From the NCBI GenBank assembly GCA_021325275.1, contig JAJPHL010000047.1:1-64000 (forward strand): a stretch of 64,000 nucleotides of DNA, given 5' to 3'. Source of the stretch: Terriglobia bacterium (GTDB lineage Bacteria > Acidobacteriota > Terriglobia > JAJPHL01). The position numbers and the translations under genes are program-made. The notes beneath the pieces were generated by a model. It was given only the letters and a program-made list of their open reading frames with translations. It did not search any database and was not told where the DNA came from. This document shows positions 31,476 through 48,354 of the stretch, piece after piece. Each line of letters starts with the position of its first letter. Positions within the stretch are counted from its first letter, which is position 1.

Positions 31476-33901
31476 TTTCGATCCTTCGCTTCGCGCTTCG
31501 TCAATGGCGCCACAACAAGCTCCTGACCGCGGCGGCGATCCTCACGCTGGCGCTCGGCACGGGCGTCAACACCACAATCTTCAGCGTGATTCACGCGGTG
31601 ATGCTGAAACCGCTGCCGTATCCGCAACCAGATCGCCTGGTACAACTGTGGTCGACGGATCTCGATCGCCCGAACACACTGCAAGAAGCGAATCGCATCA
31701 CGTCTCACGACCGGCAATTGACGCCCCCGCCCGTGGTGGACGCGTGGAGGAAGTCGAGCCGCTTGTTCGAGAACTTCGGTGGTTATCGGCCATGGCAAGC
31801 CAACCTGGTCGCGGCGCAGGGCGAGGCCGCGCGTGTGCGTGCGGGACTCGTAGATCGCGGCTTCTTTGACACGCTCGGCGTTTCCGTCCAGAGGGGAAGA
31901 ACGTTCGCGCCGGAGGACTTTATCGCGGGGCGCGATCGTGAGGTTATCCTCAGCGACGCGATGTGGCGCGAAACGTTTCACGCGGATCCGGCGGTATCCG
32001 GTCAATCGGTGAAGATCGACGGAGAGCCGTTCACGATCGTCGGAGTCATGCCGCCCGGCACGGAAATGTTGATGGCCAACATGGGCGCGCCGGACATCTT
32101 CACGCCGATCACGAATCTCGGCGGACGCTTCGAGCGATTCCCGTCGCTCTTTCTTGTCGCGCGGCTTCGTTCCGGTGCAACGATCGAGAACGCCACGAAT
32201 GAACTGGCGTCGATGGCCAAGAATCTCGGCGCGATCGATCCTCGAAAGGGCGCGCATGGCGTGCGCCTCGCGCCGCTGCGCCAAGAAGTCGCGGGCGATC
32301 TGCAACCGGCGTTGCTCGTTTTGCTCGGTGCCGCGGCCGCCGTACTGCTGATCGCCTGCGGAAATCTGGCGAACCTGATGCTGGCGAGCGTCGGCGCGCG
32401 GCAACGCGAGATTGCCGTGCGCACGGCGTTGGGCGCGACGCGCGCGCGAATTGTCGCGCAACTCTTGAGCGAATCGTTGGCACTCTCGATGGCCGGTACG
32501 GCGTGCGGTCTGCTGTTTTCGCTGTGGTCGGTGCGCGCGGTGGTGCAGCTCTATCCCGGTTCGATTCCGCGGTTGACGGGATTCACCGCCGAGCCGGCCA
32601 TCTTCGTGTTTGCGGCGGCGCTTGCGGCCATCACAACTTTGTTGTTCGGAGCTTTGCCGGCGCTGCGTTACTCGCGGCCGGGTTTGCACGAATCGCTGAA
32701 GGAATCGGCGGCGTCCACCACGCGTCGTGGATGGATCGGCGGCGCGCTCGCGGCGAGTCAAGTGGCCATGACGTTCGTCTTGCTCGCCGGCGCCGGACTA
32801 CTGTTGCGCAGCTTTCTAGAAATGCGCGCGATCTCACCGGGATTCGCGCGCGAGCGCTTGTTGGTGACGCACCTGCGCCTCGACGACAAGAACACCTACC
32901 GGCTACCGGCGCAGCAGGCGGAATTCGCTCGCAAGCTCATCGATGAAGTACACGCGATTCCCGGCGTCGAGTCCGCGGCGTTGACGAATTCGCTGCCGCT
33001 CGATTTCAACTTGCTGCTGTCCACGCGTTTCTGGATCGAAGGCCGCTCGGAATTGGGCGCCGTCGAAGGCGACACGCGCGCCGTGACGGCGGAATATTTT
33101 CACACGCTCGGAATTCCTCTCGAAGCCGGCCGCTTCTTCGACGCCACCGACGGCGCGCACGATGACGCCGTGCTGATCAACCGAACGTTTGCGCGACAGT
33201 ACTTCGGCGACGCGAATCCCGTGGGCCGTCACTTGGTCTTCGGCGACGACAAGCCCAGCCACCCCCGCGCCATTGCCGGCGTGGTCGCGGACGTTCGCAA
33301 TTACAAATTGGAGCGCAAGACCGTGGCCGAGATTTACTTGCCATTCGAGAATTTGCCCTCGTCGTTCCTCGATCTCGCGGTGAGAACGTCGGGCGATCCG
33401 CTGGCGTTGGGAGCTTCATTGCGCGAGGCGCTGCGCCGCGTGGATGCCAACCAACCGCTCGGCAACGTGTCCACGATGGAAGCCGTGCTCGATCGCTCCG
33501 TGGCCAAGCCGCGCTGGTACGCCACACTCGTGGGATCGTTCGCGGCGCTGGCATTGTTTCTCGCCGCACTGGGAATCTACGGAGTGGTGGCTTATTCAGT
33601 GAGCCGACGCACGAAGGAGATCGGCATTCGCATGGCGATCGGTGCGCAGCGTGCTCAAGTGATGCGCATGGTGATGCGCGAGAGCATCGTGCCGGCGGCC
33701 GGCGGCGTGGTGATCGGCGTGCCGCTCGCGATTCTGGCGAGCCGCGCACTCACTTCGTTCCTTTACGGTGTGGAGCTGCTCGACGCTCGCACCTACTTCG
33801 CTGTCGCGTTGCTGCTTCCCGCCATCGCGATGGTCGCCGCGTGGATCCCAGCGCGTCGCGCGATGCGTGTGGATCCGATGACGGCGCTGCGACACGAGTA
33901 A
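31472..33901 (+). CDS. ABC transporter permease of ADOP/MacB-like family
   Basis: 809 residues. N-terminal helix (LTAAAILTLALGTGVNTTIFSVI) and MacB periplasmic core domain, then FtsX domain one with TM helices (VLLGAAAAVLLIACGNLANL, preceding ARQREIAVRTALGATRARIV), a second periplasmic domain and second FtsX domain (VVAYSVSRRTKEIGIRMAIGAQ). This is the duplicated 'acidobacterial duplicated orphan permease' layout: two MacB-FtsX units in one chain with no ABC ATPase gene adjacent. Function is unknown; MacB relatives export or act mechanically with an outer-membrane partner. The start overlaps the DUF711 stop (ATGA). Confidence 0.9.
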   Translation: MISILRFALRQWRHNKLLTAAAILTLALGTGVNTTIFSVIHAVMLKPLPYPQPDRLVQLWSTDLDRPNTLQEANRITSHDRQLTPPPVVDAWRKSSRLFENFGGYRPWQANLVAAQGEAARVRAGLVDRGFFDTLGVSVQRGRTFAPEDFIAGRDREVILSDAMWRETFHADPAVSGQSVKIDGEPFTIVGVMPPGTEMLMANMGAPDIFTPITNLGGRFERFPSLFLVARLRSGATIENATNELASMAKNLGAIDPRKGAHGVRLAPLRQEVAGDLQPALLVLLGAAAAVLLIACGNLANLMLASVGARQREIAVRTALGATRARIVAQLLSESLALSMAGTACGLLFSLWSVRAVVQLYPGSIPRLTGFTAEPAIFVFAAALAAITTLLFGALPALRYSRPGLHESLKESAASTTRRGWIGGALAASQVAMTFVLLAGAGLLLRSFLEMRAISPGFARERLLVTHLRLDDKNTYRLPAQQAEFARKLIDEVHAIPGVESAALTNSLPLDFNLLLSTRFWIEGRSELGAVEGDTRAVTAEYFHTLGIPLEAGRFFDATDGAHDDAVLINRTFARQYFGDANPVGRHLVFGDDKPSHPRAIAGVVADVRNYKLERKTVAEIYLPFENLPSSFLDLAVRTSGDPLALGASLREALRRVDANQPLGNVSTMEAVLDRSVAKPRWYATLVGSFAALALFLAALGIYGVVAYSVSRRTKEIGIRMAIGAQRAQVMRMVMRESIVPAAGGVVIGVPLAILASRALTSFLYGVELLDARTYFAVALLLPAIAMVAAWIPARRAMRVDPMTALRHE

Positions 33902-38749: not shown

Positions 38750-40411
38750 TCAAACAAAATACCTGCCCGAATCGAGCAGCCGTCCGGCGATTCTCCGGCG
38801 CAACGCGACTGTGTTCGTCGGCGTTTGTGTGGTGAACTTCGCCGCGGCTGCAAACTGATCGTCGCTCGCACCGCAGGCGGCGAGTACGTTCTCGGCGTGT
38901 GCTGCCGCGCGACGCGTCGCATCGTAGACATGCACGGCGGTGATGTCGGCGGCTTGCGCGCTTGAACCGAGCTTGGCGTTGCGCAGCGTCGCCGTTTCTG
39001 AAGTGAACGCCTCGAACGCGATTTCACTCAGCCCCGCGAGGACTTCCTGTTGTTCCGCGAGACCTTGGCCGAACTTCGTCGCGGCGATCCCCGCGGCGTA
39101 CAGGAAAAGACCCTTGAGGCCTTGCCCCTTCGTGCCGAGCACGCCCTTCTTTAGCAGCATGTTCGTCGTCAACATGCGATTGATTTCGTTGGTGCCTTCG
39201 AAAATGCGATTGATGCGCGCGTCGCGATACGCGCGGTCCGGCGGATAATCGGCGTGGAATCCGTAGCCGCCGTAAATCTGCACCGCTTCGTCCACGCAAT
39301 ACCCGAGCGCCTCGCTGCACACCACTTTGCAGATGGAACACTCGGCAGCGTACTCCTCGATGCCTTTGCGAATGTAGTCGGGCTGCGAGTGATCGCTGGC
39401 TTCGAGTTCCGCGTCGATCATCCCCGCCGTGCGATATACGATTCCTTCGGCCGCGTAGCAGCGGATCGCCATTTCCGCGAGTTTGTGCTGGATCAATCCG
39501 TAGCTGGCGATCGGTTTGCCGAACGTGGTGCGTTCTTTCGCGTAGCGGAGGCAGTGCGTGATCGCTTGTTTCATGCCGCCGACAGCTCCAGCGCCCAGTT
39601 TTAGGCGTCCGATGTTCAGACAATTGAATGCGATCACGTGGCCGCGGCCGATTTCGCCGAGCACGTTTTCCACCGGCACGCGGCAATCGCTCAGCACCAG
39701 CGCGGTGGTCGACGCGCCGTGCAATCCCATTTTCTTTTCTTCGCCGCCCGCCGAGATTCCGCCAAACGACTTCTCGATGATGAAGCCGGTCATCTTGTCG
39801 CCGCCCACTTTGGCGAAGACGATGAACATGTCGGCGAAGCCGCCGTTGGAGATCCACATTTTTTCGCCGTTCAGCACGTAGAACTTTCCGTCGGCGCTGA
39901 GATCGGCGCGGCAGCGGCCGGCGCGCGAGTCGGAACCGGCGTGCGCTTCGGTCAAGCAGTAGCAACTCACCCATTCGGCCGCGGCGATCTTCGGCAGATA
40001 CTTTTTCTTTTGCGCTTCGGTGCCGAACCACGTGATCGGCGTCGCGCCGATGCCGGAGTGAACGTTGTAGACGTTCGAGAACGCGCCGTAGCGCGCCGTC
40101 GATTCCGTGACCACGACGCTCGACATCTTGTCGAGCTCCATGCCGCCGTATTCCTCCGGAATGTCGATGCCGGTCAGGCCGATTTCCGCGGCTTTCGTCA
40201 GTAGGCCTCGCATCTTGACGTAGTCTTTGTGGTGTTCGAGGTATTCGGCCTCGGGAAGAACTTCGTTCACCACGAAGTCCTCGGCGGTCTTGGCGATCAT
40301 GCGTTGCTGTTCGCTCAAGTCTTCGCGCGTGAAAATGTCCGCCGGAGTGCAGTCTTGCGTAAGAAACGCCCCGCCCTTCACGCGCGGCAATACGGGAGCC
40401 GATGATGCCAT
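38750..40411 (-). CDS. Acyl-CoA dehydrogenase, FadE-like paralogue
   Basis: 553 residues. Acyl-CoA dehydrogenase N-terminal, middle (CLTEAHAGSDSRAG with FAD/substrate contacts, KMWISNGGFAD) and C-terminal FAD domains are complete, with the catalytic-base region RIFEGTNEINR and the flavin site QIYGGYGFHADYP. A ~120-residue helical C-terminal extension (from about LFLYAAGIAATKFGQG) matches the Bacillus FadE type, which is longer than standard 380-residue enzymes. It oxidises acyl-CoA to trans-2-enoyl-CoA, passing electrons to ETF. It is the second such gene in this operon, ~60% similar by eye to the 41.8 kb copy, so a duplication. Ribosome site GAGGA upstream of the ATG. Confidence 0.93.
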   Translation of the reverse strand: MASSAPVLPRVKGGAFLTQDCTPADIFTREDLSEQQRMIAKTAEDFVVNEVLPEAEYLEHHKDYVKMRGLLTKAAEIGLTGIDIPEEYGGMELDKMSSVVVTESTARYGAFSNVYNVHSGIGATPITWFGTEAQKKKYLPKIAAAEWVSCYCLTEAHAGSDSRAGRCRADLSADGKFYVLNGEKMWISNGGFADMFIVFAKVGGDKMTGFIIEKSFGGISAGGEEKKMGLHGASTTALVLSDCRVPVENVLGEIGRGHVIAFNCLNIGRLKLGAGAVGGMKQAITHCLRYAKERTTFGKPIASYGLIQHKLAEMAIRCYAAEGIVYRTAGMIDAELEASDHSQPDYIRKGIEEYAAECSICKVVCSEALGYCVDEAVQIYGGYGFHADYPPDRAYRDARINRIFEGTNEINRMLTTNMLLKKGVLGTKGQGLKGLFLYAAGIAATKFGQGLAEQQEVLAGLSEIAFEAFTSETATLRNAKLGSSAQAADITAVHVYDATRRAAAHAENVLAACGASDDQFAAAAKFTTQTPTNTVALRRRIAGRLLDSGRYFV

Positions 40412-40425
40412 ACAGTTGTCCTCTT

Positions 40426-41739
40426 TTACTTTACAAATTCAGGAGATTTTCCTTCGTCCCAAGGATGATAACTCTGCGCGAAGCGAACGCGCTCTCCGAT
40501 TGATGGATGATCGTAGAGCCAAAACTCGATGAACGGCGGCGGATCGGGATCGGCGAGCGCCACTTCGCCGAGAAGCTGGAACGAATCGGCGGCGACGGTT
40601 TGCGAATTCGGCACCAGGCCGTGGATCACCTCGAGACCATAGATGTCAGCTTCGTGCTCCTGATGCCGCGACCACGCCGACGTCACCGGCTCGCCGATGA
40701 ACCCAAACGCCGACATCAGCAGAAGCAGCACGGGGAGTGCCGCCCAATCCGACTGACCACGCACGCCCCAGCGCCCTCCGTAATCCTCGATGAGCCACGC
40801 CATGCCGCGAAATCCTACGTAGAGCGCGACGAACAGCAGCACCGCGAGAAACGCCATCGTCTTCGGGATGTGATGCAGCACATAATGCCCCTGCTCGTGG
40901 CCGAACGTGAACATCAAGTCGGGAAGGGTGCATCGCGCGATCGTCGTGTCCCACACCACCACGCGCTTCGTCGCGCCGAATCCGGTGACGTAGGCGTTGA
41001 GCGATGTGACGTCCTCGCTCGCGTCCATCTCGAACATGCGGTCGACGGGAATGTCGAGTCCGCCGCGCCGCGTAACTTTTTGCACCGCCGCGACCACTTC
41101 CGGGTGCTTGACGTTCAGCGGCGTGAACTTGTGAAACATCGGATCGATCACGACCGGCGTGATGAAAACGAGGAACGCGATCAGCGGCAGCGACGCCAGC
41201 CAGCACCAAATCCACCAACGCCGGGGACTCCAGCGGATCAATCCAAAAAGGATGAGCGCGAAGACCGTGCCAAAGAGGATGCTGAGGAATTCGCCTTTCG
41301 CTTGATCCCAAGACCAAGCGCCCCAGCCTTGCACCGATTGTCCATAGACGCGCTCGAGATGCTGCAAGTAGACTTCATTCGGCAGCGTAGGAAGATCGGT
41401 GAGCAACGTGAGTAGCGGCGCGAAGATCAGTCCTTGCACCCACCAGCGTTGTGTGGCCGATTCTGCCAGCGATCGCGTGCGCGCGGACAATCCGAATCCG
41501 AGCACCCCGAGGAGGATCGCAAGACCCCAGATCTCGTCCACGAAGTGCATTGTGTACTTGATCCGCGAAAACTTGATCGCGCGTTCGCGATCTTGAGGAT
41601 TTAGCTTGTACTCGCGTTGCTGGCAGAACAATGGGGCCGCTAGAACGAACAACAACACAAAGGCAACCGCAGATGAACGCAGATGAACGCAGATATCGGA
41701 GCAGCGTTTCGTTGTTAATCTGCGTTTATCTGCGTTCAT
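40426..41739 (-). CDS. M48 (Ste24-like) integral-membrane zinc metalloprotease
   Basis: 437 residues with about six transmembrane helices. Zinc motif HEQGH at 281-285 (FTFGHEQGHYVLHH) and the third ligand Glu363 in QEHEADIYG; the layout is that of CAAX-prenyl-protease Ste24/HtpX relatives. Bacterial members degrade damaged membrane proteins. It is located between two acyl-CoA dehydrogenase genes on the same strand. The start at 41739 lies inside a dyad repeat, whose arms encode MNADKRRL and the following residues up to AVA of the signal sequence, and FVLLFVLAAPLFCQ completes it. Longer frame upstream (to 42426) is antisense-like noise over the previous gene and is not used. Confidence 0.88.
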   Translation of the reverse strand: MNADKRRLTTKRCSDICVHLRSSAVAFVLLFVLAAPLFCQQREYKLNPQDRERAIKFSRIKYTMHFVDEIWGLAILLGVLGFGLSARTRSLAESATQRWWVQGLIFAPLLTLLTDLPTLPNEVYLQHLERVYGQSVQGWGAWSWDQAKGEFLSILFGTVFALILFGLIRWSPRRWWIWCWLASLPLIAFLVFITPVVIDPMFHKFTPLNVKHPEVVAAVQKVTRRGGLDIPVDRMFEMDASEDVTSLNAYVTGFGATKRVVVWDTTIARCTLPDLMFTFGHEQGHYVLHHIPKTMAFLAVLLFVALYVGFRGMAWLIEDYGGRWGVRGQSDWAALPVLLLLMSAFGFIGEPVTSAWSRHQEHEADIYGLEVIHGLVPNSQTVAADSFQLLGEVALADPDPPPFIEFWLYDHPSIGERVRFAQSYHPWDEGKSPEFVK

Positions 41740-41749
41740 CTGCGGTTGC
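41663..41749. repeat. Inverted repeat with 10-base tandem arms at the M48 start
   Basis: Arms 41663-41694 and 41718-41749 (32 bases, one mismatch), loop 23. Arms are tandem units of GCAGATGAAC (10 bases). The M48 ATG is within one arm and both arms are translated into its N-terminus. The element lies 8 bases after the upstream fadE stop. Confidence 0.85.
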
Positions 41750-41756
41750 TTTTTTC

Positions 41757-43493
41757 TTAAACGAAATACTTGCCGCGTTCCAGCAAACGGCCGCAGATGC
41801 GGCGGCGCGCTTCGATCGTGTCGACCGATTCCTGCTTGGTGAAGCGTTTCAGGATCGCCAGGCGCGCGCGCAGGTCGTCGCCTTCGCAGCAGTGAGCGAG
41901 CGCGGCCTTGGCTTCCGCCTCGACTTTGCCGACAGCGTCGTGGACGTACACGCCGGTCATATCGTTGGCTTGCGCGCTGTTGCCAAGTTTCTGCGCGCGC
42001 AGCCGCGCTGTTTCCGATGCGAACACTTCGAATACGATGTTGGTGAGCGCGCCGATCACTTCCTGCTGGTCTTTCAAGTTCGTCATGTACTTCTTCATCG
42101 CGGCGTCGGCGGCGAAGAGGAAAATCTTCTTCATGTTCGCCACGGGATCGGTTACGCCGGACGGTCCGGCCATGATTTCGTCTTGCAGTTTCTTGCCCGC
42201 GGCCATCAGCGGCAATTCGTTCTTCATGGCGCGCTTCATCAGCATGTCGACCACGAGCAGCCGGTTGATTTCGTTCGTGCCTTCGAAGATGCGGTTGATG
42301 CGCGCGTCGCGATAAACGCGTTCCGGCGGATAGTCGGCGTGGAATCCGTAGCCGCCGTAGATTTGCACGGACTCGTCGGCGCAGTACCCAAGCGCTTCCG
42401 ATGCGAAAACCTTGTTGATCGCGCACTCCACCGCGTATTCTTCAATCGCTTTGCGCGACGCTTCCACGGAGTGGTCGCCCGACTGAAACTCGGTGTCGAT
42501 CATACCCGTGGTGCGATACAAAATTCCCTCGGACGCGTAGGCGAGAATCGCCATCTGCGCGAGTTTGTGTTGAATCAGCCCATAGCTGGCGATCGGTTTG
42601 CCGAACGTGGTGCGCTCCTGCGCGTACGCCAAGCTGTGCTTGATGGTTTGCTTCATTCCGCCCACCGCGCCGGCGGCCAGCTTCAAGCGGCCCATGTTCA
42701 AAACGTTGAACGCGATGATGTGGCCGCGTCCGACTTCGCCGAGCACGTTCTCGATTGGCACTTTGCAATCGGACATGATCACCGGCGTCGTGGACGATCC
42801 ATGGATGCCCATCTTCTTTTCTTCCGCGCCCGGCTTGATGCCGCCAAATGCTTTCTCCACGATGAACGCGGTGAACTTCTCGCCGCCGACTTTCGCGAAA
42901 ACAATGTAGAGGTCGGCGAATCCACCGTTGGTGATCCACATTTTTTCGCCGTTCAGGATGTAGTGCTTGCCGTCCGGCGACAAATCAGCGCGGGTGCGCG
43001 CGGCCAGCGCGTCCGATCCGGCGTGCGCTTCGCTCAAGCAGTACGCCGCGACAAGTTCCGCCGACGCGACCTTGGGCAGATACTTGGCTTTCTGTTCCGG
43101 CGTGCCGAACCAGTTGATGGGGTGCGTTCCGATCGAGGAATGCGCGCCATGCGCGCCGGAAAACGATGCGTATTTCGCCACGTACTCGGAGACCAGCACG
43201 CTCGACACTTTGTCGAGCTCCAGGCCGCCGTATTCCTCGGGAATGTCCATGGAGAGCAATCCCAACTCGCCGGCCTTGCGCAGCAGCGAGCGCATCATCT
43301 CGTAATCTTTGTGCTCGAGATGCTCAGCGTGCGGCACAACTTCTTCGGTGACAAAGTCGTTGGCGGTTTTGGCGATTTGCAAATGCTCTTCGGTGAAATC
43401 CTCGGGCGTGAAGATTTCCTGAGCGCTGCGATCTTCCACGAGAAAAGCTCCGCCCTTGATGCGGGGCAAAGCGGGCGCTGCGACGGTGGCCAT
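41757..43493 (-). CDS. fadE: Acyl-CoA dehydrogenase FadE
   Basis: 578 residues. Complete FadE-type acyl-CoA dehydrogenase: LSEAHAGSDALAA, KMWITNGGFAD, QIYGGYGFHADYPPERVYRDARINRIFEGTN region (shown in parts) with the catalytic glutamate in FEGTNE, plus the long helical C-terminal extension of the Bacillus FadE type. It catalyses the first step of beta-oxidation. The gene order fadN-fadA-fadE is the same as the Bacillus subtilis fadNAE operon. Start at 43493 rather than 43541: AAGGAG lies seven bases before this ATG, and the extra 16 residues would be encoded by the dyad-flanking DNA. Confidence 0.95.
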   Translation of the reverse strand: MATVAAPALPRIKGGAFLVEDRSAQEIFTPEDFTEEHLQIAKTANDFVTEEVVPHAEHLEHKDYEMMRSLLRKAGELGLLSMDIPEEYGGLELDKVSSVLVSEYVAKYASFSGAHGAHSSIGTHPINWFGTPEQKAKYLPKVASAELVAAYCLSEAHAGSDALAARTRADLSPDGKHYILNGEKMWITNGGFADLYIVFAKVGGEKFTAFIVEKAFGGIKPGAEEKKMGIHGSSTTPVIMSDCKVPIENVLGEVGRGHIIAFNVLNMGRLKLAAGAVGGMKQTIKHSLAYAQERTTFGKPIASYGLIQHKLAQMAILAYASEGILYRTTGMIDTEFQSGDHSVEASRKAIEEYAVECAINKVFASEALGYCADESVQIYGGYGFHADYPPERVYRDARINRIFEGTNEINRLLVVDMLMKRAMKNELPLMAAGKKLQDEIMAGPSGVTDPVANMKKIFLFAADAAMKKYMTNLKDQQEVIGALTNIVFEVFASETARLRAQKLGNSAQANDMTGVYVHDAVGKVEAEAKAALAHCCEGDDLRARLAILKRFTKQESVDTIEARRRICGRLLERGKYFV

Positions 43494-43521
43494 AAGTGAT
43501 CTCCTTAAATCAAAATCGTGA

Positions 43522-43594
43522 TTTCTTAGCCACCGAGACACCGAGATCGATCCGAGGCTTTCTCGGTGTTCTCGGTGCCTCGGTGGCTAAGAAA
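43522..43594. repeat. Inverted repeat with ~8-base tandem arms between fadA and fadE
   Basis: Arms 43522-43546 and 43570-43594 (25 bases, one mismatch), loop 23 bases that itself contains further CTCGGTG units. The repeating unit is close to CACCGAGA. It fills the intercistronic space after the fadA stop (43597) and before the fadE ribosome site; a stable hairpin here may adjust relative mRNA levels. Confidence 0.8.
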
Positions 43595-43596
43595 CG

Positions 43597-44778
43597 TCAT
43601 TGCAAATTCTCGAAAATACCTGCTGCGCCCATGCCGCCGCCTACGCACATGGTCACCATGCCGTAGCGGCCTTTGCGGCGCTTCAATTCATTCAAGATTG
43701 TCGCGGTCAGTTTGGCGCCGGTGCATCCCAGCGGATGTCCCAGCGCGACCGCGCCGCCGTTCACGTTCACGCGCGAGGCGTCGAGACCCGCTTCACGGAT
43801 CACCGCGAGCGCCTGCACCGCGAACGCTTCGTTCAATTCGATGACGTCGATTCTGTCGAGCGAGAGTCCCGCGAGTTTCAGCACCTTTGGGATCGCCTTC
43901 ACGGGGCCGATACCCATTTCCTCGGGCAGCACGCCGCCCGTGGCGAACGCGACAAAGCGCGCCAGCGGCTTCAGGTTCAGGCGCTGAGCTTTTTCTGACG
44001 ACATTACAACCACACCAGCGGCGCCGTCGGACGTTTGGGACGCATTACCAGCGGTAACGGTGCCGCGCGCGTGAAATGCGGGCTTCAGTTTCGCCAGCGC
44101 TTCCATCGACGTGTCGGCGCGCGGTCCTTCGTCGACGGAGAACGTGATCTTTTGCGTTACGGCTTTGGCGCCGCCATTCGGTTGCGTAAAACTCACTTCC
44201 ACCGGCGCGATTTCGTCAGCGAACTTTCGGGCGGCGATCGCGGCGATCGCTTTCTGATGGCTCGCCACGGAAAATGCGTCGGCTTCTTCGCGACCGATTT
44301 TGTATTTCCGCGCGAGATTTTCGGCGGTGAGTCCCATGTTCAAGTAAACGTCGGGATATTCCTCGACGAGCGTGGGATTCGGCGACAACTTGAAGCCGGT
44401 CATCGGGACCATGCTCATCGATTCGGTCCCGCCGGCGAGAATGCAGTCGGCAAAACCCGCGATGATGCGTTCGGCGGCCATGGCGATCGACTGCAGGCCG
44501 GAACTGCAAAAGCGATTGATGGTGACGGCGGTCGTTTCCACGGGAAGCCCGGCGCGGAGTGCGGCAATGCGCGCGACGTTCATGCCTTGCGCGCCTTCCG
44601 GCATCGCGCAGCCGAGGATCACGTCTTCAATTTCCGCGGCGTCGAGACCGGGCGCGCGGCGCAGGAGATCTTTGATGACCACGGCGGCGAGGTCGTCGGG
44701 GCGCGTGGCCCGCAGCGTTCCGCGATTCGCTTTGCCGACCGCCGTGCGTGCCGCGGCGACGATCACTGCTTCTTTCAT
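43597..44778 (-). CDS. fadA: Acetyl-CoA acyltransferase (thiolase) FadA
   Basis: 393 residues, the normal thiolase length. The active-site residues are visible: nucleophile Cys91 in NRFCSSGLQ, His348 in [11 protein letters not shown], and Cys378 in [10 protein letters not shown]. It cleaves 3-ketoacyl-CoA to acetyl-CoA and a shortened acyl-CoA. It is the second gene of the fad operon, following fadN after a dyad repeat. A Shine-Dalgarno AGGAG lies upstream of the ATG (complement near 44785-44790). Confidence 0.95.
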
Positions 44779-44798: not shown

Positions 44799-44868
44799 AG
44801 TGCTGAGTCCTGAGTGCTGAGTCCTGAGTTTGGTTTCGCTCAGCACTCAGGACTCAGCACTCAGGACT
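44799..44868. repeat. Inverted repeat of AGTGCTG/AGTCCTG heptamers between fadN and fadA
   Basis: A left block at 44799-44828 of alternating AGTGCTG and AGTCCTG units and a right block at 44839-44868 with their complements, so that 23 bases pair in more than one register. It starts one base after the TAG of fadN. The same unit sequence occurs again at 53.2 kb, so this is a dispersed repeat. Confidence 0.85.
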
Positions 44869-47224
44869 AGTTTCTCAGCGGTTTGCCGGTCTTCAGCGTG
44901 AACGCCATTCGTTCCTGTGTCTTCTTTTGTCCGAGCAAACTCAAAAACGCCTCGCGCTCGAGATCGAGCAAGTATTGTTCGCTTACTTCCGGCGATCCCG
45001 TGATCGCGCCGCCGGCGAGAATGTGCGCCAGTTTGCGGCCCACTAGCGCGTCGTGTTCGCTCATGTATCCGCCGCGCAATCCCATGTGGACGCCCAGCAT
45101 CATCACGGCGCGTCCGCTTTCGCCGAGCACTTTCACTCTGCGTTGCGTCGGCGCTTGATATCCGCCGCGCGCCATTTCGAGAACGTCGGCCTTGGCGTCG
45201 GCGACTTGGCGCTCGCGATTCATCGACACGTTGTCGGACGCGCGCAGGTAGTGGAAGCGGCGTGCTTCCTCGGCGCTGGTCGAGACTTTCGCGAAACCGA
45301 TTTGTTCGAAGTATTGTTTCAGTCGCAGGAAAGGATCCTCGTCGGGCGCCAAATCTTCTTGCGCGCGAATCACCATTTCCTTGCAGCCGCCGCCGCCGGG
45401 AATCAGGCCGACGCCCACTTCGACCAGCCCCATGTACAACTCGGCCGCGGCGCGGATGCGCGGCGCGTGGAGCGGAATCTCGCATCCGCCGCCGAGCGAC
45501 AGGCCGAACGGACACACGACAACAGGCTTCGGCGAATACTTCACCGCCATGTTGACGTTCTGGAATCCGCGGATGGCCAGGTCCAGTTCGTCCCACTCTT
45601 CTTCTTGCGCGGCCAGCAGCGCGAGCATGATGTTCGCGCCGACCGAAAAATTCGCCGCCTGATTCGCGATGACGAGTCCCGTGCCGTTCGCTTCCGATTC
45701 TTTCAGTCCTTCGCGGATCATCGAAAAAGTGTCGGCGCCGAGCGAATTCATCTTCGAGTGGAACTCGACGCAGAAAACGCCGTCTCCCAAGTCGAGCAGG
45801 CTTGCGCCGGAGTTTTTCTTGACGATGGAATTGCGATACTTCTGCTGCTTCAGGTAAAGGACGCCCGCCGGGGGATCGATCTGGTGATACGCCATCGTGG
45901 GGAAATCGAAATACAGCGTGGCTTTCTCTTCCTTCTTGAAGAACGATTTTACGCCGGCGTCGAGCATCGACTTCACGTTCGCCGGCACGCTCGGGAGCTT
46001 CGAACAAACTTGCTCCACGCCGAGCGCGTCCCACATTTCGAACAATCCCGCCTCCCAGGCGAATCCCCACTTTACGCAGCGATCCACTTCCACGATGCGC
46101 TCGCAGACTTCGGGAATCCGCGAGGCGGCGTAAGCGAACGACGCCGGCAGCGTTTTTTGCGTGAACGCGCCGGCGCGGTCCGCCGAGTTGTAGACCATCG
46201 CGGCGCGTTCGAGCGGGCTGTCGACGTTCTTGGTCATTTCGAGAACGGGGAAGCGCGGCTTTTGCTGCGCGCGATACTCCATCGTCTTCCAATCCAGCAC
46301 CAGCGTCTCGCGCGATCCGTCGGCGGCCTTCGTCTTCTTGTAAAAACCTTGGCCTGCTTTGTCGCCGAGCCATCCACGCTTTAGCATTTCTTCCATGAAC
46401 GGCGGAACCACGAACCAATCGCGCTTTTCGTCGTGCACCGCGTTTTCGTGCAGGTTGCGGATCACGTTGCAACAGGTGTCGAGGCCCACCAAATCGATCA
46501 GGCGGAACGTGGCGGTCTTCGGTAGACCGAGCGCGGGCCCGGTGAGTGCGTCGACTTCTTCGATCGTGTAATCGTCGGTTTGCATCACGCGCAGGATGTT
46601 CACCATCGAAAACGTGCCGATCCGGTTGGCAATGAAATTTGGCGCATCGTTGGCGTTCACCACGCCTTTTCCGAGATGCAGGCTGCAAAAATCGGAGATC
46701 AGCGCCATTGCCTCGGGCGCGGTGCCGGGTCCCGGAATCAGTTCCAGCAGGAACATGTAGCGCGGCGGATTAAAAAAGTGCGTGCCGAAGAAATGACGGC
46801 GGAAATCCTCGCTGCGTCCTTCGGCGATGGATGCCACGGGGAGTCCGCTGGTGTTCGTCGTGACAATTGAGCCGGGCTTGCGCACTTTTTCCACGCGCTC
46901 GAAGAGGCTGCGCTTGATCTCCAGTTTTTCGGCGACCGCCTCGATGATCCAATCGCATTCTGCGAGGCGGTTCAGGTGATCGTCGAAATTGCCGGGCGTG
47001 ACGAGCGCGGCGTTGTCGGGATGAAAGAACGCTGCGGGCTTCGACTTCACCGCGGCTTCAAGTCCGGCGGCGACAATCTTGTTGCGCGATTTTTCGTCCG
47101 TCGCGCCGGGGGCGGGGATGTCGAGCAAATGGACGGGCACGCCCGCGTTGGCGAGGTGCGCGGCAATGCGTGCGCCCATCACTCCCGCACCAAGGACGCC
47201 GGCACGCTGAATGGTTTTGATCAT
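44867..47224 (-). CDS. fadN: Bifunctional 3-hydroxyacyl-CoA dehydrogenase / enoyl-CoA hydratase FadN
   Basis: 785 residues, close to Bacillus FadN (789). The order is the reverse of E. coli FadB: the NAD-binding dehydrogenase is N-terminal (AGVLGAGVMGARIAAHLANAG, residues 8-28; then TTNTSGLPVASIAEG and GTHFFNPPRYM) and the crotonase-like hydratase C-terminal (~470-690; FCVEFHSKMNSLGAD, GLSLGGGCEIPLHAP, GLIPGGGGCKEM). It hydrates trans-2-enoyl-CoA and oxidises the product to 3-ketoacyl-CoA. First gene of the operon with fadA and fadE; the promoter upstream contains a TGAATGA-N4-TCATTCA operator. Confidence 0.94.
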   Translation of the reverse strand: MIKTIQRAGVLGAGVMGARIAAHLANAGVPVHLLDIPAPGATDEKSRNKIVAAGLEAAVKSKPAAFFHPDNAALVTPGNFDDHLNRLAECDWIIEAVAEKLEIKRSLFERVEKVRKPGSIVTTNTSGLPVASIAEGRSEDFRRHFFGTHFFNPPRYMFLLELIPGPGTAPEAMALISDFCSLHLGKGVVNANDAPNFIANRIGTFSMVNILRVMQTDDYTIEEVDALTGPALGLPKTATFRLIDLVGLDTCCNVIRNLHENAVHDEKRDWFVVPPFMEEMLKRGWLGDKAGQGFYKKTKAADGSRETLVLDWKTMEYRAQQKPRFPVLEMTKNVDSPLERAAMVYNSADRAGAFTQKTLPASFAYAASRIPEVCERIVEVDRCVKWGFAWEAGLFEMWDALGVEQVCSKLPSVPANVKSMLDAGVKSFFKKEEKATLYFDFPTMAYHQIDPPAGVLYLKQQKYRNSIVKKNSGASLLDLGDGVFCVEFHSKMNSLGADTFSMIREGLKESEANGTGLVIANQAANFSVGANIMLALLAAQEEEWDELDLAIRGFQNVNMAVKYSPKPVVVCPFGLSLGGGCEIPLHAPRIRAAAELYMGLVEVGVGLIPGGGGCKEMVIRAQEDLAPDEDPFLRLKQYFEQIGFAKVSTSAEEARRFHYLRASDNVSMNRERQVADAKADVLEMARGGYQAPTQRRVKVLGESGRAVMMLGVHMGLRGGYMSEHDALVGRKLAHILAGGAITGSPEVSEQYLLDLEREAFLSLLGQKKTQERMAFTLKTGKPLRN

Positions 47225-47259: not shown

Positions 47260-47289
47260 ATCATACTGAATGAACGCTCATTCAGTCAA
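47260..47289 (-). promoter_or_regulatory. fadN promoter with FadR(TetR)-type operator between -35 and -10
   Basis: On the minus strand: -35 TTGACT (complement of 47284-47289), an 18-base spacer and -10 TATGAT (complement of 47260-47265). The spacer is filled by the palindrome TGAATGAACGCTCATTCA (47267-47284; the dyad extends to 47265-47286). It matches the published Bacillus FadR box TGAATGA-N-TA-N-TCATTCA except for the two central bases. A TetR-family FadR-like repressor, released by acyl-CoA, would block RNA polymerase here. No such repressor gene is in the window. Confidence 0.85.
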
Positions 47290-47318: not shown

Positions 47319-47840
47319 ATGGCGACGACCGCTCTCATCCCGGTGGAAGAATACCTCTCGACCAGCTACACGGACGGGGATCGCGAGTACGTAGATGGCG
47401 AAGTATTGGAGCGTAATGTGGGAGAACGCAATCATGCGCGGCTGCAATTGCTCATCGCGTCGTTTCTCAATGCGAATTACGGTAAGTTTTGGTCGGCCAC
47501 CGAGTGCCGCGTGCGAATGTCCCCCACGCGCTTCCGGATTCCCGATATTTGCCTCGCTACGGTACGCCCGGGCCCCGAAGACGGACCGTTGACCGATCCG
47601 CCGTTCCTCGCGATCGAAGTCCTTTCTCCCGACGACCGCGCCAGCGACCTCGAGGAAAAAATCCGCGATTATCTTGCTTGCGGCGTGAAATTCGTCTGGG
47701 TGATCAATTCGCGCACGCGCGCGGGATTCGTTTACACCTCCGACGGCATGCGCGAAGCCAAAGACGGCGTGCTGCGCACCGAAGACCCTTGCATTGAACT
47801 TCCCCTCGCGAACATCTTTGAAGATGGCTCGTCGCGCTAA
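47319..47840 (+). CDS. Uma2-family (DUF820) putative restriction-endonuclease-like protein
   Basis: 173 residues. Typical Uma2 features: VEEYLSTSYTDGDREYVDGEVLER near the start and the PD-(D/E)xK core RIPDICLATVRPG...AIEVLSPDDRASDLEEKI with a Lys later in the same helix. Members are abundant in cyanobacteria and Acidobacteria; their DNA-cleavage role is not proven. It is divergent from fadN (94 bases) and overlaps the next gene's start by 17 bases. Confidence 0.85.
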   Translation: MATTALIPVEEYLSTSYTDGDREYVDGEVLERNVGERNHARLQLLIASFLNANYGKFWSATECRVRMSPTRFRIPDICLATVRPGPEDGPLTDPPFLAIEVLSPDDRASDLEEKIRDYLACGVKFVWVINSRTRAGFVYTSDGMREAKDGVLRTEDPCIELPLANIFEDGSSR

Positions 47841-48354
47841 GCTCCGCTCTCAACTAATTGCCGCGCTCTCCGACGCCGGACGCGAGTCGTCGACCGCGAC
47901 GGTTCTGCTGCACACCGCGATCGCTGGACGCATTGGGCTATCGGCCAGCGATACCAAGACGCTCGACGTGCTGCTGCGCCAGGGACCATGCACCGCCGGT
48001 GAGTTGGCGCGTCACACGGGATTGACCACGCCGTCGGTGACCAGCTTGATCGATCGTTTGGAGTCGAAGCGGCTCGTCGAGCGGGAGCGCGATCCGCGCG
48101 ACCGCCGGCGCGTGATGGTGCATCCCGTTCTCTCGCGCATCGCGCGATTCGCGCCGTTGTACGGGGCCATCGGGAAGCAATTCGAGGAGTTTTTCGGTCA
48201 GTACAGCGACGCGCAGCTCAAAACCATTCTCGATTTCATGACGAAATCGGCGGAACGCTCGCGGCAGATCGCCGCGTCTATTTCCAAAGCGAAATCTCGA
48301 AGCCAATCCCTTCGGCGCGGACCTCGGAGCGCTCGAACGGCGTCCGCGAAATAA
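47824..48354 (+). CDS. MarR-family transcriptional regulator
   Basis: 176 residues from ATG 47824 (a longer start at 47794 lies inside Uma2). The winged helix-turn-helix is VLLRQGPCTAGELARHTGLTTPSVTSLIDRLESKRLVERERDPRDRRRV, shown here in parts: LARHTGLTTPSVTSLIDRLE is the recognition region, DPRDRRRV the wing. MarR dimers bind palindromes and are released by small ligands. Its 3' end overlaps the convergent methyltransferase gene by 77 bases, giving an Arg/Ser-rich tail. A candidate operator (CTCGATGyATC pair) lies upstream of that methyltransferase gene. Confidence 0.88.
   Translation: MARRAKLRSQLIAALSDAGRESSTATVLLHTAIAGRIGLSASDTKTLDVLLRQGPCTAGELARHTGLTTPSVTSLIDRLESKRLVERERDPRDRRRVMVHPVLSRIARFAPLYGAIGKQFEEFFGQYSDAQLKTILDFMTKSAERSRQIAASISKAKSRSQSLRRGPRSARTASAK

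Follow-up and report, generated by a model that had tools for sequence, protein, structure and literature searches.

The window, i.e., the whole stretch of 64,000 nucleotides of a Terriglobia bacterium that was analyzed, carries on its minus strand the genes fadN, fadA, and fadE, in the same relative order as in Bacillus, which confirms the order read by a first-pass annotation of this DNA. The gene fadN (44867..47224) encodes a protein of 785 aa in which a 3-hydroxyacyl-CoA dehydrogenase is fused to an enoyl-CoA hydratase-like domain (Pfam 3HCDH_N, 3HCDH, and ECH; the best NCBIfam model, Staph_FadB, is matched over its full length). It is followed by fadA (43597..44778), encoding an acetyl-CoA C-acyltransferase of 393 aa (Pfam Thiolase_N and Thiolase_C; TIGR01930 above its cut-off), and by fadE (41757..43541), whose longest frame encodes a Bacillus FadE-type acyl-CoA dehydrogenase (594 aa; NCBIfam NF058590, 789 bits with a cut-off of 600). 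On the same strand, an M48-type membrane peptidase gene (40426-41700) is located between fadE and a second fadE paralogue (38750..40411), 61% identical to the first one (tblastn) and scoring 613 bits with NF058590, or 670.8 bits with its in-frame neighbor. The peptidase gene and the paralogue possibly belong to the same transcript as fadNAE. Between fadE and the peptidase gene (41660-41750), a short sequence is repeated in inverted orientation (CGCAGATGAACGCAGAT at 41668 and ATCTGCGTTTATCTGCG at 41718), resembling a small interspersed element. On the other side of the operon, a gap of 94 bp separates the start of fadN (47224) from a divergent Uma2 gene (47319, plus strand).

Read on the minus strand, positions 47289-47260 of this gap consist of TTGACT-N18-TATGAT. 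As the first-pass annotation had observed, a sigma-70-like -35 hexamer (TTGACT, 47284..47289) and a sigma-70-like -10 hexamer (TATGAT, 47260..47265) surround an 18-base palindrome, TGAATGAGCGTTCATTCA, at 47267-47284. The palindrome does not, as that annotation had it, exactly fill the spacer, which extends over 47266-47283: it is offset by one base, so that it takes in the final base of the -35 hexamer and ends one base short of the -10. The symmetry reaches 22 bases (47265-47286, ACTGAATGAGCGTTCATTCAGT), with 10/11 pairs symmetric. This 22-bp dyad has the core TGAATGAN4TCATTCA, proper of the regulon of the Bacillus-type TetR regulator FadR, and it is a predicted FadR operator on the basis of its sequence, its matches in the genome, and the co-occurrence with FadR across the phylum (see below). 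The promoter scores 10/12 (p = 0.0005 with the box fixed and the flanks shuffled) and represents the sole sigma-70-like match within the 10.6 kb around; since 2.2 such matches are expected in shuffled sequences, they are not rare as a class. Both hexamers recur in relatives, with TATnAT at the -10 place of their promoters and TTGC/TTGAC at the -35 place of the fadN promoters of the Acidobacteriota families f2 and f23.

No further operator match was found in the 64-kb window, even at three mismatches. The whole genome (6.86 Mb) contains exactly two matches to TGAATGAN4TCATTCA at 0 or 1 mismatch, both of them perfect, and the reversed pattern, used as a control, gave zero. Matches with two mismatches were not counted as sites, being equal in number to those of the reversed control (5 places). 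One of the two perfect boxes is that of fadN; the other is located on contig C72, 2 bp before the start codon of a TetR gene, referred to as fadR (33123-33719), where it could serve for autoregulation. A TTGACC-N18-AATAAT match is present upstream of fadR, which would place the -10 inside the box, and the stop codon of fadR overlaps by ATGA the start of an acyl-CoA synthetase gene (AMP-binding acyl-CoA ligase). The genes accompanied by a box are, in this genome, those of beta-oxidation, an acyl-CoA synthetase gene, and fadR itself. These counts, together with those obtained in the phylum, rule out a chance palindrome.

The sequence and the predicted fold of the protein encoded by the TetR gene both indicate a FadR of the Bacillus kind. 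Among the solved proteins, it matched Bacillus halodurans FadR (5GP9, E 6e-38) and Bacillus subtilis FadR (3WHB/1VI0, E 3e-32), of which it is a full-length homologue, the next solved protein having an E value of 2e-13. It contains the Pfam TetR_C_4 ("YsiA-like") C-terminal domain (99 bits), and its best NCBIfam model is that of Bacillus FadR, ahead of any other by more than 120 bits; the score of 181.7 bits is below the equivalog cut-off of 200, so that the protein just misses automatic naming. In the AlphaFold model (mean pLDDT 90), the first 13 PDB fold matches are all Bacillus FadR chains (TM 0.87-0.90), and B. subtilis FadR has exactly the same residues in the helix region VADGTIYLYF.

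In order to assess the co-occurrence of box and regulator, 396 Acidobacteriota genomes were analyzed, FadR being called present at E below 1e-30 or from one contig-end fragment. FadR was found in 121/396 genomes, and 201 perfect boxes were found in 89/396, the reversed pattern occurring in 2/396. FadR is encoded in 84 of the 89 genomes with a perfect box; that is, the perfect box is present in 84/121 genomes with FadR and in 5/275 genomes without it. When only the 212 genomes possessing fadN are considered, the box is present in 78/110 genomes with FadR and in 0/102 without it. These genomes are related, and nominal p-values would overstate their independence. At the family level, a perfect box is found in 23 of the 29 families bearing FadR, and three of the other six (f35, f36, and f78) have a box with one mismatch. 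Of the 30 best acidobacterial loci, 29 have a box (no more than one mismatch) within 250 bp of fadR. A TetR-FadR homologue in the same genome and a box kept upstream of fadN in relatives, on which the annotation had made its FadR-type operator depend, were both found. An in-frame stop in the FadR of family f27 is only apparent and corresponds to the natural gene end (one of three genomes checked). In three of the five FadR-less genomes with a box, the latter adjoins another, distant TetR gene. In L014, L015, and L016, which lack a clear FadR, the gene next to a perfect box encodes a distant TetR (27-43% identity in the matched part) that may be a diverged regulator recognizing the same site. 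No paper describing FadR in Acidobacteriota was found in a literature search of incomplete coverage.

Different organization strategies for these genes have been found in Acidobacteriota. In some families (f12, f34, f41, f71, and f72), they form one cluster, box-fadR-fadD-fadN-fadA-fadE; in others (f17, f26, f31, f35, f46, f48, f60, and f64), the order is box-fadR-fadN-x-fadA-fadE. In a third, split layout (the window, part of f2, f16, f23, f47, and f78), a separate box accompanies fadN-fadA(-fadE), and fadR is located elsewhere; a perfect site is found at both parts in the window, f16, f23, and f47, as would be expected of a site under selection. Further acidobacterial boxes adjoin fadE, etfB, and alpha/beta-hydrolase genes. 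In family f34 (L017, L020, and L021), FadR boxes also adjoin alpha/beta-hydrolase-like genes (possible lipase/esterase), which suggests a wider lipid-use regulon in this family.

FadR might bind the operator and control the divergent Uma2 gene as well as, or instead of, fadNAE, given that the site lies within the fadN-Uma2 gap and that Uma2-MarR transcription runs away from it. This is unlikely, since the only promoter-like match of the gap points to fadN and the genes found at the box in relatives are fadR, fadN, fadE, or etfB. It is even less probable, to the point of being very doubtful, that the palindrome is the operator of another local regulator, such as the MarR-family protein encoded two genes from it on the other strand (47824-48354), and that its likeness to a FadR box is coincidental: the MarR gene is close by and divergently placed, and MarR proteins, too, recognize palindromes of roughly this length, but the second site is at fadR on another contig, the box accompanies fadR/fadN in relatives, and it is missing from all the fadN-bearing genomes without FadR.

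The association of box and FadR extends to other phyla. When named genomes were scanned with a FadN profile, 80 loci were retrieved, in which a box with at most one mismatch precedes fadN in 30 of the 36 Bacillota-type loci; such a box before fadN was also found in several Acidobacteriota, three Desulfobacterota-type genomes, and one Myxococcota genome, and not at the Bacteroidota, Chloroflexota, or Acidimicrobiia fadN loci among the 80. A FadR search in 50 of these genomes gave 21 stronger matches (>140 bits), from several phyla, and at 16 of them the gene is preceded by a box that deviates at one position at most. Box and FadR are, therefore, present in at least four phyla, in agreement with the first-pass suggestion of a widely conserved regulatory code. 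One record, titled Pseudomonas sp. ISL-84 (L220), contains a fadNAE locus that is, like its promoter, of Bacillales type; the record is probably mislabelled or contaminated.

The position of the box within the promoter varies. Of 19 acidobacterial fadN-operon promoters, counting that of the window, 13 have the box sandwiched between a -35-like and a -10-like hexamer (at least 8/12 matches) spaced 17-18 bases apart. These promoters were found in f1, f2, f16, f23, and named Blastocatellia, with many loci coming from one family, and the single-locus p-values with shuffled flanks are modest outside the window (0.0015 to 0.11). In Bacillales fadN, unlike in the window, no such -35/-10 sandwich was seen; an A-rich stretch abuts the left arm of the box and, in our own interpretation, could represent the -10. 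The operator has thus been kept, and its position in the promoter differs.

In some families, FadR is kept and the site is altered. In family f2 (L254-L265), belonging to the same class as the window, FadR is about 37% identical to that of the window, and the boxes, located 115-165 bp upstream of fadR, are mostly degraded (e.g., TGAATGTATAAACATTCA, TGAATGACAGTTCATTCT, and AATGAATCCTAATTCATT). Other altered sites (L122 5508-5520, L124 7822-7834, L123 6191-6204, and L284) belong to families f28, f7, f69, and f42, all retaining FadR: the site has apparently changed to TGAACTTAGTTCA and TGAACGCCGTTCA in f28 and f7, to TGAATGATCATTCA, where the 4-base center is missing, in f69, and to TGAATGGCCATTCA in f42. 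The changed sites of these four families are possible natural specificity shifts.

The first-pass annotation had also proposed horizontal transfer of the module, and the operator core and the gene order are indeed equal to those in Bacillales, with a patchy distribution of FadR in Acidobacteriota. The phylogenetic analysis does not agree with a recent gain of operator, regulator, and fadNAE from a Bacillus-like donor. In the FadR tree, whose root was not inferred, the 43 acidobacterial proteins, including that of the window, form one side of a branch (100/94), and those of Bacillota form a separate clade (99/95); the grouping of the window FadR with the Bacillota clade was rejected (AU test, p = 0.0023). 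The Syntrophaceae sequence L244 was removed from the later FadR trees because of its very long branch. The phylogeny of FadN (31 rows; root not inferred) groups the window sequence (99/99) with f2, a family belonging to the same class, so that neither protein is nested within Bacillota. Moreover, the Bacillales promoter is differently laid out, and the neighbors of fadR across Acidobacteriota are fadD and fadN. A recent transfer is, on this evidence, extremely unlikely; an ancient one, between phylum stems, is possible.

The histories of regulator and enzyme appear to be different. A single clade of acidobacterial FadN sequences was rejected (p = 4e-11), and those of f47, f78, and f16 adjoin in the tree Myxococcota and Desulfobacterota sequences; FadN has several origins within Acidobacteriota. 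The same families (L108, L109, L111, and L112) possess an acidobacterial FadR and a box before fadN, or before fadA in L108. The presence of a fadN of foreign lineage under an acidobacterial FadR and its box suggests that regulator and operator were inherited within the phylum and that some of the enzymes were exchanged. More tentatively, and with somewhat less confidence than doubt, it can be proposed that the repressor-operator pair, common to Bacillota, Desulfobacterota, and Myxococcota, has remained almost unchanged in sequence from around the time Acidobacteriota arose, that in several families FadN gave way to enzymes of foreign lineages, and that the promoter was variously rebuilt around the 18 bases, i.e., that the code is older than its genes and promoters.

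On the whole, the palindrome very probably serves as operator for a Bacillus-type FadR that represses beta-oxidation and is released by acyl-CoA, regulator and operator having been inherited within Acidobacteriota and not recently gained from Bacillus. This reading draws on the sites, the gene content, the co-occurrence, and the trees, as well as on the homology of the regulator and its predicted fold. In B. subtilis, FadR is known as a repressor of fadN-fadA-fadE and lcfA-fadR-fadB-etfB-etfA, and C14-C20 acyl-CoA inhibits it (PMC4525379). By analogy with Bacillus FadR, the acidobacterial protein would bind the palindrome as a dimer or a pair of dimers, covering the space between the -35 and the -10 of the fadNAE promoter and keeping RNA polymerase off. 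The long-chain acyl-CoA accumulating in the cell might then bind FadR, as its fold and homology suggest, causing it to leave the DNA and turning on together beta-oxidation and fatty acid activation; through the box at fadR, the repressor may also limit its own synthesis.

The system shares with the B. subtilis FadR (YsiA) regulon the TetR regulator with a YsiA-like C-terminal domain, the core TGAATGAN4TCATTCA, the targets fadN-fadA-fadE, acyl-CoA synthetase, and fadR itself (PMC4525379), and, in related Acidobacteriota, an etfB gene under the box. It differs from it in having two confident sites rather than five operons, in the arrangement of fadR followed by fadD instead of lcfA-fadR-fadB-etfB-etfA, and in the fadN box lying between the -35 and the -10. 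Thermus thermophilus FadR likewise has a TetR fold, an acyl-CoA ligand (presumed in the present case), and fatty acid degradation genes as targets; however, its operator is TTRNACYNRGTNYAA (PMC5597230), and its structure (3ang) is matched at E 1e-7, against 6e-38 for B. halodurans FadR. PsrA/FadP of Proteobacteria are also TetR regulators of fatty acid degradation (PMC5343134), but the Vibrio PsrA model gives 28.9 bits on the window genome's FadR, against the 181.7 of the Bacillus model. The Escherichia coli FadR has in common the name and the (here putative) control of beta-oxidation by acyl-CoA, and belongs to the GntR rather than the TetR family.

The system is, therefore, ordinary in kind, yet it is shared more widely than the Bacillus model suggests, and a well-studied Gram-positive switch is extended, with a definite predicted regulon, to one of the major phyla of soil, Acidobacteriota. 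It offers a comparative system in which repressor and site are constant against changes in operon order, in promoter layout, and even in enzyme lineage, and the families with drifted sites (f2, f7, f28, f42, and f69) may represent natural cases of specificity change.
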